DNA from: Saprospiraceae bacterium
GTDB taxonomy: Bacteria; Bacteroidota; Bacteroidia; Chitinophagales; Saprospiraceae
DNA: 64,000 nt
Direction of reading: 5' to 3'
NCBI GenBank assembly: GCA_028280415.1
Contig: JANQLV010000041.1
Location: forward strand, 1 to 64,000
Below the pieces are notes generated by a model. That model was not told the origin of the DNA, searched no databases, and saw only the letters and a list, made by a program, of their open reading frames with translations. Made by a program: the position numbers and the translations under genes. How positions within the stretch are numbered: position 1 is the stretch's first letter; each line of letters opens with the position of its first letter. Below, piece by piece: positions 9,763 through 12,674 of this stretch.

Positions 9763-10797
9763 ATGAGAAAAATAAGTTTTACACTTCTTTGTTTGGTGAT
9801 CATGATAGTCGGATCAAATGCCCAGGATCAGCATTTTACTCAGTTTTATGCATCTCCGCTTACGCTTAATCCGGCACTCACTGGTGCATTTAATGGGAAA
9901 TATCGCGCAAGTGCTATCTACCGCGATCAGTGGCGCAATGTTTTGGATAATCCTTATACTACTTTTTCGGCAGCAATTGATGTACGATTTGATGTAGAGC
10001 TGGATTCCAGATATAAAGATGCTTTTGCGGTAGGCTTGATGTTTTATAATGATCAGGTGAGTGGCATTGATTTTAGTACGAATCAAATCGCACTTTCCGG
10101 ATCCTTCCACAAAGGACTTGACTTTGAAAAAACCCAGTTTTTGAGTGTTGGTTTTCAAGGCGCTCTGGCACAACGAAACATCAATTACGAAGATTTGGTG
10201 TTTGATGATCAATTTAATGATGTTGATGGCTTTGAATTTGCAACCGGCGAGAGCTTGCCGGAAAATAATTTCACTTTTTCTGATTTGTCGGTTGGACTTA
10301 ATTATACTTATTCGCCAACCAAGCGGCTTTCTTTTTTTGCAGGAGCAGCTATGCATCATATTTTTAGACCACAAGTGACTTTTTACAGCATCGAAGAAGG
10401 CGGTGACAGTAAGTTATACTCCAAATATTCTGCTCAGTTGAGTGCGCGTATTCCAGTCGCGGATCTGGTATCCATCAGCCCTCGCTTTTTGATTGCTTCC
10501 CAGGGACCTCATTTGCAGGTCAATACGGGCAGCAATGTAAGATTTCAATTCAATGATTATGGCGATACCGCTTTGCATCTCGGAAGCTGGGTAAGGCCGG
10601 TACGCAATCAGGATGATTCCATCGACCTAGATGCTTTGGTATTAATGGCCGGAATAGAATTAAATGCCGTGATTATTGGCTTATCCTATGATCTCAATCT
10701 CCAGAATATCAGCACAGCCCGCAGAGGTGCTTTTGAAATGTCGATTACTTATATAGGGGATTTTGAGGATGACGGGATTCTTTGTCCAAAATTTTAA
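9763..10797 (+). CDS. PorP/SprF-family type IX secretion membrane protein
   Basis: A 344-residue outer-membrane beta-barrel protein. The signal peptide ends at SNAQ (residue 21). It is followed by the family hallmark DQHFTQFYASPLTLNPALTG, then KYRASAIYRDQWRN and alternating amphipathic strands (LSVGFQGALAQRNINYEDL, IELNAVIIGLSYDLNL). It ends in the short GDFEDDGILCPKF tail common to this family. PorP/SprF proteins associate with the T9SS and are needed for export or surface attachment of partner adhesins. Usually one sits beside a type B sorting-domain protein. Here the nearest such proteins are 11 kb (1488 residues) and 27 kb (3109 residues) away, so its client is not evident. Confidence 0.92.
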   Translation: MRKISFTLLCLVIMIVGSNAQDQHFTQFYASPLTLNPALTGAFNGKYRASAIYRDQWRNVLDNPYTTFSAAIDVRFDVELDSRYKDAFAVGLMFYNDQVSGIDFSTNQIALSGSFHKGLDFEKTQFLSVGFQGALAQRNINYEDLVFDDQFNDVDGFEFATGESLPENNFTFSDLSVGLNYTYSPTKRLSFFAGAAMHHIFRPQVTFYSIEEGGDSKLYSKYSAQLSARIPVADLVSISPRFLIASQGPHLQVNTGSNVRFQFNDYGDTALHLGSWVRPVRNQDDSIDLDALVLMAGIELNAVIIGLSYDLNLQNISTARRGAFEMSITYIGDFEDDGILCPKF

Positions 10798-10880: not shown

Positions 10881-11516
10881 TCAGAAATTAGCTAATTGCA
10901 TGCCGGTAACGTATTTAGAGCTTTTCGAATAACGGAAAGGGATGAATCGAAAAATGTCATCTGCAATATCATCATGCTTTTGCTCGTATTTGATTTCCAA
11001 AATGCTGGCAGAATCAATAAGATTGTAGCGGGTAAAACGCCTGGCGCTCAGCAGCGAAAAATAGCTTAGGTTCCAGTCAATGGTCATCCTGAATTTACCG
11101 GAAAAGCTTTCATAATAAGACCTTTGATAAGAATTGATCAGTGTAGGCAATAAAGAGAGTTTTAGTTCACTATGATTTGAAACCGTTTTGCTCAAAGCCT
11201 GTAAATCATCCAGGGAAAAATCATCTACAGCATAACTTTTTTTTGTCCCTAAGAGATTGTCTTTTATTTTTATTTCCAGAGTGGGGTTTTTGATCTCTTC
11301 GATATGCGAAGCATACCAGCGCACCCGGAACTTTCGTCGCTGCGGAACGCCATCGACATTTTCCTGATAAGCTATCAGGCTGGCAGTATCGAAATAGATA
11401 TTATTAATCTGCCGATCCGGATAAGTCTTCCGAAAAGAGGCCGGATGGTTTCTAAGTACTTGACGTACTACTTCCGGATGTACTCCTTCTAAACGGTACT
11501 TGCGTTCGTACCTCAT
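10881..11516 (-). CDS. VTC-domain (polyphosphate polymerase-like) protein
   Basis: A 211-residue protein with the VTC fold, a triphosphate-tunnel barrel. It opens with RYERKYRLEG, continues with INNIYFDT and RRKFRVRWYA, and shows basic/acidic strand pairs EIKIKDN and ILEIKYEQK that would line the tunnel. In the family such domains make polyphosphate from ATP or bind polyphosphate. The basic residues K/R and the Glu metal ligands (LEIKIK, LEIKYE) are present, so activity is possible. It starts 3 bp after the stop of the RibBA-like gene, in a three-gene operon with the glycosyltransferase; the functional link is unclear. Confidence 0.85.
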   Translation of the reverse strand: MRYERKYRLEGVHPEVVRQVLRNHPASFRKTYPDRQINNIYFDTASLIAYQENVDGVPQRRKFRVRWYASHIEEIKNPTLEIKIKDNLLGTKKSYAVDDFSLDDLQALSKTVSNHSELKLSLLPTLINSYQRSYYESFSGKFRMTIDWNLSYFSLLSARRFTRYNLIDSASILEIKYEQKHDDIADDIFRFIPFRYSKSSKYVTGMQLANF

Positions 11517-11519
11517 TTT

Positions 11520-12674
11520 CTAAAATTCCAATTGAACATTATCTACAATTTCCAGCCCATAGCCAATTAAACCGACTCTTCTTTTGGAACTATTGGAAAT
11601 CAGTCTGATTTTCGAAATGTTTAATTCCCGAATGATCTGCGCTCCTACTCCATAATCCCTTTGCTCCATACTTTTACTCCCCTCCTGGCTAATATTGGTA
11701 TCTCCGGCCAGGCTTTTCAGGCGATTGAGGATCGAATTGCCTTTTTCACCGTGTCGCATATAAATCAGTGCGCCCTTGCCTTCTTTGGCAATCATCTCCA
11801 TAGAACGATGCATTTGCAAGCCATAATCATCGAAAAGTGTCCCGAGAATGTCTCCTGTTTCGGAGCTGGAATGTACGCGAACCAGCACAGGTTCATCATT
11901 TCCCCATTCTCCCATTTTAATCGCCAAATGGGTATCGCCAGTGGTTACCTGCGTAAAAGCAATCACCTCAAATTTGCCGTATTTGGTTTCCATGTCTACC
12001 GAAACTTCCCGTTTAACGATCCTTTCGGTACGCATCCGATAGGCTACCAGGTCTTCAATAGAGATAATCTTTAAATCGTGTTGCCTGGCAATTTCCATCA
12101 ATTGAGGCAGGCGAGCCATTGTCCCATCTTCATTCAGAATTTCTACACAAACACCTGCCGGGTACAAACCCGCCAGTCGAGCCAGGTCAATCGTCGCTTC
12201 GGTATGCCCGGTTCGCCGCAACACCCCTCCCATTTTGGCCCGCAAAGGGAAAATATGTCCCGGACGTGCATAATCAGAAGCCTTGGTATCGGGATCGACC
12301 AATGCTTTGATTCCCGTGGCCCGGTCAAAGGTTGAAATCCCCGTTGTACAACCCTGCCCAATCAAATCTATAGAAATCGTAAAAGCCGTTTCATGTGGAT
12401 CGCTATTGGATCGAACCATCATCGGTAAATCCAATTCATCTGCCCTTTTTTCTTCAATTGGCGTGCATATCAAACCACGGCCATAAGTAGCCATAAAATT
12501 GATAATCTCCGGTGTAACGGTTTCTGCCGCACAGATGAAATCACCTTCGTTCTCCCGATCTTCATCATCGACAACGATAATTACTTTTCCAGCCTTGATA
12601 TCGGCAATAGCTTCTTCTATTGTATTGAGTTGCAAATCTGTCTCTTTAGTTACGCTTAGGTGGTTGCCAAACAT
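11520..12674 (-). CDS. ribB: RibBA-like protein: DHBP synthase with degenerate GTP cyclohydrolase II half
   Basis: A 384-residue protein of riboflavin synthesis. Residues about 17-213 are 3,4-dihydroxy-2-butanone 4-phosphate synthase with intact motifs: DDEDRENEGDF (36-46), GISTFDRAT and RPGHIFPLRA, and H157-T-E. Residues about 220-384 align with GTP cyclohydrolase II, but the three zinc cysteines of the usual CxTGD...LRCDCG motif are replaced by S271, D282 and Y284 (VRVHSSSETGD, LFDDYG). The RQEGRGIGL loop is replaced by RHGEKGNSIL. The second half is therefore probably inactive, as in proteins called RibBX. The ATG at 12674 overlaps the glycosyltransferase by 29 bp; a TTG at 12632 is an alternative start. 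Confidence 0.93.
   Translation of the reverse strand: MFGNHLSVTKETDLQLNTIEEAIADIKAGKVIIVVDDEDRENEGDFICAAETVTPEIINFMATYGRGLICTPIEEKRADELDLPMMVRSNSDPHETAFTISIDLIGQGCTTGISTFDRATGIKALVDPDTKASDYARPGHIFPLRAKMGGVLRRTGHTEATIDLARLAGLYPAGVCVEILNEDGTMARLPQLMEIARQHDLKIISIEDLVAYRMRTERIVKREVSVDMETKYGKFEVIAFTQVTTGDTHLAIKMGEWGNDEPVLVRVHSSSETGDILGTLFDDYGLQMHRSMEMIAKEGKGALIYMRHGEKGNSILNRLKSLAGDTNISQEGSKSMEQRDYGVGAQIIRELNISKIRLISNSSKRRVGLIGYGLEIVDNVQLEF

Follow-up and report, generated by a model that had tools for sequence, protein, structure and literature searches.

A RibBX-type protein of apparently bacteroidete origin in Saprospiraceae, and related families with the zinc-less form but no recognised RibA

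The window, i.e. the whole stretch of 64,000 nucleotides analysed here, carries a gene for a fused riboflavin protein whose GTP cyclohydrolase II (GCHII)-like half, the X half, is very probably dead, a separate RibA opening GTP and the domain being retained as a partner of the DHBP synthase. According to this explanation, the gene would encode the single recognised DHBP synthase of its genome joined to a GCHII-like domain that could neither bind zinc in the known way nor open GTP, and GTP opening for riboflavin would fall to a stand-alone RibA from another contig. The domain would once have been active, its active site decaying once the family had a stand-alone RibA, and selection would have kept fold, linker and C-terminal block as an aid to the DHBP synthase half in assembly, stability or activity control. 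Judged from sequence comparisons, the encoded protein belongs to the RibBX type and has an independent, bacteroidete origin. Interest in the case grows through a large family, named f20 here, in which most genomes share this loss and have no recognised RibA.

The fused gene and the loss of its zinc site

Pfam assigns residues 20-212 of the window protein to DHBP_synthase (E 8.1e-88) and residues 222-380 to GTP_cyclohydro2 (E 3e-45); the plus strand across 11520-12674 is interrupted by stops (Table 1). The protein passes TIGR00506 (DHBP synthase) with 257.1 bits against a cut-off of 177.45 and fails TIGR00505 (RibA) with 88.6 bits against 205.85. For the residue comparison we used 93 intact RibBAs, some identical to each other, as reference, with E. 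coli RibA positions numbered along the 2bz0 chain. The DHBP synthase half is intact by sequence, with 68 kept of the 69 columns conserved to at least 97% among these RibBAs, in agreement with the first-pass annotation, which had described all motifs of this half as present.

The same annotation had reported the loss of all zinc ligands and of the RQEGRGIGL loop, and both readings hold up in the alignment. C54, C65 and C67, cysteine in 93/93 intact RibBAs, are replaced by S271, D282 and Y284, and the segment QEGRGIG (E. coli 91-97, invariant in 93/93) corresponds to H308-S314. Among the positions which, from work on E. coli RibA, we take to be catalytically important, Y105, D126 and K154 are changed to L322, E337 and R365, and R128 is retained as R339 together with the block RDYGVGAQ...GLIGYGLE. 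In addition, positions ~112-117, six residues ahead of the RDYG block, are deleted, and the C-terminal tail past ~173 is absent, including the YLxTKRDK...H motif conserved in intact forms. Among the 179 proteins aligned, all three zinc cysteines are present in 97, none in 81 and one or two in 0, L053 being cut by a contig end inside the zinc motif; this all-or-none pattern argues that the loss of the cysteines is not due to chance. One other row of this alignment, L170, is a RibA-RibD_C fusion of 479 aa from G446 (family f51; L170, L193), a genome that also has a separate zinc-less RibBA-like protein.

The neighbours of the fused gene include a PorP/SprF-like type IX secretion gene (window 9763-10797) and, directly beside the fused gene, a VTC-domain gene of 211 aa (window 10881-11516). 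An Rfam scan of the window and five loci of the same genome returned no FMN riboswitch or other family at gathering score.

Table 1. Features of the fused gene and the other GCHII-family genes of the same genome (G000).
Feature	Position	Strand	Description and basis
ribBX-like gene, DHBP synthase + zinc-less GCHII-like domain	11520..12674	minus	384 aa, ATG start
DHBP synthase (RibB) half, residues 16-213	12036..12629	minus	Pfam, TIGR00506, conserved columns
GCHII-like X half, residues 214-384	11523..12035	minus	Pfam match; fails TIGR00505
S271 at zinc-ligand C54 position	11862..11864	minus	alignment with intact RibBAs
D282 + Y284 at zinc-ligand C65 + C67 positions	11823..11831	minus	alignment with intact RibBAs
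RHGEKGNSIL, residues 307-316, replacing RQEGRGIGL loop	11727..11756	minus	alignment
Retained C-terminal block QRDYGVGAQ...GLIGYGLEIVDNVQL, residues 338-382	11529..11663	minus	alignment, pairwise identity
Stand-alone RibA (L001)	G000:C58:4521-5018		198 aa; HSECLTGD...CDC, RQEGRGIGL; other contig than window gene
GCHII-family paralogue	L003 1480-1995; G000:C57:96276-96758		171 aa; zinc cysteines CIFGHY...CDC, loop DQEGKGNG

Riboflavin genes of the same genome

Together with the window gene, the genome (7.1 Mb, 99.39% complete) contains three genes of the GCHII family. The first-pass annotation had expected an independent functional ribA elsewhere, to be found by a search for CxTGD...CDC, and had named the lack of any other GCHII gene as what would speak against its reading. 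The search turned up a stand-alone RibA on contig C58 with all motifs and 244.4 bits in TIGR00505 (cut-off 205.85), so that a functional enzyme is predicted; genomes with no second GCHII gene do occur in related families. The third gene, a paralogue on C57, fails TIGR00505 with 135.8 bits (cut-off 205.85) and forms a separate tree group (100/100) with relatives in G020 and the f20 genomes G746 and G897. No second DHBP synthase was matched in this genome, the window gene being the single match. RibH lies just beyond the window (C41:64838) and RibD, with 359 aa of bifunctional size, on C25.

Besides, a RibD_C-like reductase gene of 310 aa without apparent deaminase half comes after the stand-alone ribA (L001 1495-3133, G000:C58). 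The same gene pair is present in G003 (L023), and it may act in a side pathway in addition to riboflavin synthesis.

Distribution within the Saprospiraceae

The family labelled f1 corresponds broadly to the Saprospiraceae, as its DHBP synthase halves include sequences identical to those of Saprospiraceae bacterium and Saprospira grandis. In a first sample of 24 genomes, the own one included, 21 had the zinc-less fusion (20 complete reads, 1 incomplete), and in 19 of these 21 it co-occurs with a RibA without DHBP synthase half; of the remaining two, G013 has a RibA fragment at a contig end and G012 no RibA. Stand-alone RibA was found in 0/3 f1 genomes with an intact fused RibBA and in 0/14 genomes with a match from other families of the order (15 searched), each with a single match.

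A larger draw of 284 f1 genomes was classed solely by best E-value. By this measure, 22 have an intact fused match (E 1e-70 or better), which is the single match in 20 of them, and 244 (by subtraction) have a best match of RibA strength (1e-70 to 1e-50), in 14 cases as the single one. A further 11 have weaker matches alone and 7 have none; among these 18, G293 is rated 100% complete and the fusion sequence was read for G012 alone. Because of these 11 and 7 genomes, the zinc-less form may not always accompany RibA.

Origin of the zinc-less form

The closest intact relative compared is a RibBA of the own family and not a proteobacterial RibBX: the window protein shares 67% identity with the former and 48% with the RibBX-type protein of Aeromonas. 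In the DHBP synthase tree, zinc-less and intact forms of f1 fall together (72 rows, SH-aLRT 99), with one long-branched f51 row inside. A tree of 71 rows with Aeromonas, Vibrio and other outgroups, in which bootstrap is not fully settled and several branches are long, places the Aeromonas/Vibrio pair, the two proteobacterial RibBX-type rows of the comparison, away from the bacteroidete rows except for the long f45 branches L171 and L172. That the gene is an acquired proteobacterial RibBX is thus very improbable, even though architecture and class of loss are shared and 6mnz as well as the Aeromonas and Vibrio proteins align nearly full length. The resemblance to the RibBX type proposed in the first-pass annotation therefore stands for the architecture, i.e. 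a zinc-less fusion with a separate RibA, and not for descent: the window protein groups with the RibBA of its own family, and the likeness looks convergent.

By the tree placements, the zinc-less architecture arose more than once in the phylum. Zinc-less proteins of f1, of G604 (f23) and L142 are placed among intact RibBAs of their own or near relatives, those of f39 sit on a long stem beside Mucilaginibacter, and for f20 and f19 the trees contain no intact member. The zinc-loss label changes 7 times in the tree of 175 fused rows (169 different), at least 4 of these changes being forced by starred branches, and 10 times, at least 5, in the 71-row tree. In L142 (Bacteroidetes bacterium MAG-117), the zinc cysteines are replaced by S, E and G and the loop is still readable as NQEGKGMG; from these residues, its zinc loss looks recent.

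In the GCHII-domain tree, one group (98/87) holds the RibAs of 24/27 f1, 3/3 f19 and 3/11 f20 genomes and is separate from the GCHII halves of bacteroidete RibBAs, which argues that the RibA of f1 was not split off from RibBA. Exceptions are G091 as well as G041 and G044, the latter two lying beside a fused protein from their own genus.

Selection on the X half and competing explanations

Mean pairwise identity in f1 was compared by segment between 20 zinc-less and 22 intact members. The DHBP synthase half is equally conserved in both (76.5% vs 75.7%), the start of the second half less so in zinc-less forms (43.4% vs 61.6%), and the former active-site segment turns from the best segment of intact forms (81.3%) into the worst of zinc-less ones (33.5%), the C-terminal block keeping 64.7% (intact 79.6%). 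Since the active-site segment decayed while the C-terminal block stayed conserved, the X domain has probably persisted as a partner with a structural or regulatory function, and the identity pattern is what a loss of catalysis with such a retained role would predict. The dN/dS values for f1 are rough, with dS about 1 or more: 0.31 in the former active site vs 0.13 in the DHBP synthase half for L052/L042 (0.70 in the former active site for L052/L040), and 0.13-0.25 over the whole X half in the closest pairs, up to 0.43 with the fast-evolving L040. A non-functional relic, kept only through fusion to an essential enzyme and drifting freely, would fit the raised dN/dS and poor conservation of the former active-site segment; it is nevertheless unlikely given the constraint on the C-terminal block and on the whole X half in close pairs, and the f1 members read showed no frame break (L053 ends at a contig end). 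It is further opposed by f20, where the former active-site segment has a mean identity of 66.5% (29 proteins), new invariant stretches (LGTLT, FINQ) and a dN/dS of 0.007-0.06 in the closest pairs and about 0.2 in more distant ones. Because the f20 X half is constrained including this segment, it looks repurposed rather than a relic.

An altered, perhaps metal-independent active site by which the zinc-less domain still opens GTP would be in line with the retention of R128 and of some of the C-terminal block, and with f20, f39 and f23 genomes examined by sequence in which the zinc-less fusion is the sole GCHII-family protein, most f20 genomes having no match of RibA strength. However, zinc ligands, QEGRGIG loop and Y105 are all gone, the replacements differ by lineage, and the own genome has an intact RibA. 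In addition, according to the accessible part of the report, the RibBX of Aeromonas salmonicida, with 4/16 critical residues kept, complements E. coli ribB and fails to complement ribA (PMC10012899). Taken together, we consider GTP opening by the zinc-less domain highly unlikely, and a dead X half kept as a partner of the DHBP synthase half, a role toward which its conservation points, remains our preferred explanation.

Structural model and comparison with known systems

An AlphaFold2 model of the window protein (47 sequences) reached a mean pLDDT of 85.3 and a pTM of 0.81, being weak around residues 310-340 and below pLDDT 70 in parts of the X half. It matches Mtb RibA2 (4i14) and A. baumannii RibBX (6mnz) along the whole chain, with an rmsd of 7.1 to 6mnz and of 2.2 and 7.2 to the two 4i14 chains; how the halves are placed relative to each other in the model is uncertain.

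RibBX, with Brutinel et al. 2013 as the cited reference, is represented by Shewanella oneidensis, Acinetobacter baumannii (6mnz) and Aeromonas salmonicida. Like the window protein, it combines DHBP synthase with a GCHII-like domain of the same fold lacking zinc ligands and ring-opening residues, beside a separate RibA in the genome. In contrast to RibBX, the window form derives from a bacteroidete RibBA and has other replacement residues, and its sister families carry the zinc-less form where the RibA search found none. With the bifunctional RibBA of Mtb (RibA2, 4i14), its best PDB sequence match, the window protein shares domain order, DHBP synthase half, linker and C-terminal block, whereas zinc cysteines, loop, the six residues before RDYG and the C-terminal tail are missing; three zinc cysteines and a QEGRGIG loop, as expected of a bifunctional RibBA, were not found in it. 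The X half is homologous in fold to stand-alone RibA (E. coli 2bz0; L001), but L001 keeps the ligands and passes TIGR00505, unlike the X half. A ribBA annotation would overstate the capability of the window protein.

Families with the zinc-less fusion and no recognised RibA

Judged by its place and by its size of 177 genera in the draw, f20 is probably the Flavobacteriaceae. In 10 single-contig f20 genomes (99-100% complete), the zinc-less fusion is the sole PF00925 match. A larger draw held 297 genomes at least 98% complete, 294 of them with a match; classed by E-value, 0 of these have an intact fused RibBA, 10 a stand-alone match of RibA strength, 2 a match near 1e-47 (172-175 aa, paralogue type) and 282 weaker matches alone (some with two) and none of RibA strength. 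All 29 fused f20 proteins read, 18 of which are among the best-scoring matches of the larger draw, are without any zinc cysteine; one of their genomes, G669, has RibA too. The zinc-less fusion without RibA was likewise found in 5/5 f39 genomes read and in G604 (f23), and RibD and RibH are kept in 16/16 RibA-less genomes checked from f20, f39 and f23.

For 150 marine isolates representing five orders, the accessible part of a growth survey names auxotrophies for B1, B3, B7, B9 and B12 and none for B2, with Flavobacteriales in the groups of the figure and riboflavin in the vitamin mix (PMC12448291). As no B2 auxotrophy is named there, bacteria like f20, the surveyed strains being unmatched to our genomes, are suggested to make riboflavin. 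Two Flagellimonas strains are described in the accessible part of a 2025 paper with ribBA within a complete riboflavin gene set (PMC12688033), and we infer that Flagellimonas belongs to f20. A whole family may be scored as riboflavin-complete through a ribBA call unable to do the GTP step. If such bacteria make riboflavin, a well-studied environmental group would have an unrecognised GTP-opening enzyme; otherwise, a widespread B2 auxotrophy would have been missed. For most f20 and f39 genomes, where the zinc-less RibBX appears as the sole GCHII-family protein and RibD, RibH and DHBP synthase are kept, we give an even chance to an unrecognised enzyme doing the first committed step of riboflavin synthesis. 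Such a replacement would be hidden, as zinc-less proteins, e.g. the Vibrio one, are annotated as bifunctional RibBA. Our literature search, with most subscription papers beyond its reach, returned no report of a RibA gap in these families, which is no proof of novelty.

Candidates for the GTP-opening step

Archaeal-type GTP cyclohydrolase III (PF05165) gave no match above cut-off in 17 genomes, with sub-threshold matches in G357 (E 0.09) and G417 (E 0.75). Inspection by eye of the ribBX, ribH and ribD neighbourhoods in 10 f20 genomes yielded conserved neighbours, none recognised as a GTP-opening enzyme.

The first half-reaction of FolE (GTP cyclohydrolase I; PF01227) is the same chemistry as GTP opening, which makes a FolE encoded beside cysS a candidate, albeit a weak lead that is more probably wrong by far. 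FolE loci, counted leaving out 7 f17 genomes, lie beside cysS in 24/27 RibA-less genomes read (15 f20, 11 f39, 1 f23) vs 0/20 genomes with intact RibBA, a contrast that amounts to about three lineages. Of the other 3, G330 and G487 fall in the same tree region with no cysS within 1 kb, and for G376 the second FolE alone was read. Against this candidate, the cysS-linked FolEs are not one clade and keep the GCHI motifs without group-specific change at residues known to be catalytic; with these motifs kept and two of them passing curated FolE cut-offs, they look like ordinary folate enzymes. Moreover, no cysS-linked FolE was seen at the FolE loci read in RibA-less f1 genomes (G012, G293, G212 and one of two in G209), and three f19 genomes have a cysS-linked FolE alongside RibA.

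In f23, where G604 was the single zinc-less genome seen, this genome carries an additional, cysS-linked FolE, and 6 genomes with intact RibBA have PTPS-linked FolE only. Within f39, all 32 genomes classed as zinc-less by E-value (5 of them read) have a FolE match, that of G602 with an internal stop, vs 9/11 genomes with an intact-strength RibBA without any, the other 2 having a different FolE. The f39 genomes without FolE may make folate precursors otherwise, perhaps from RibBA, or not at all.
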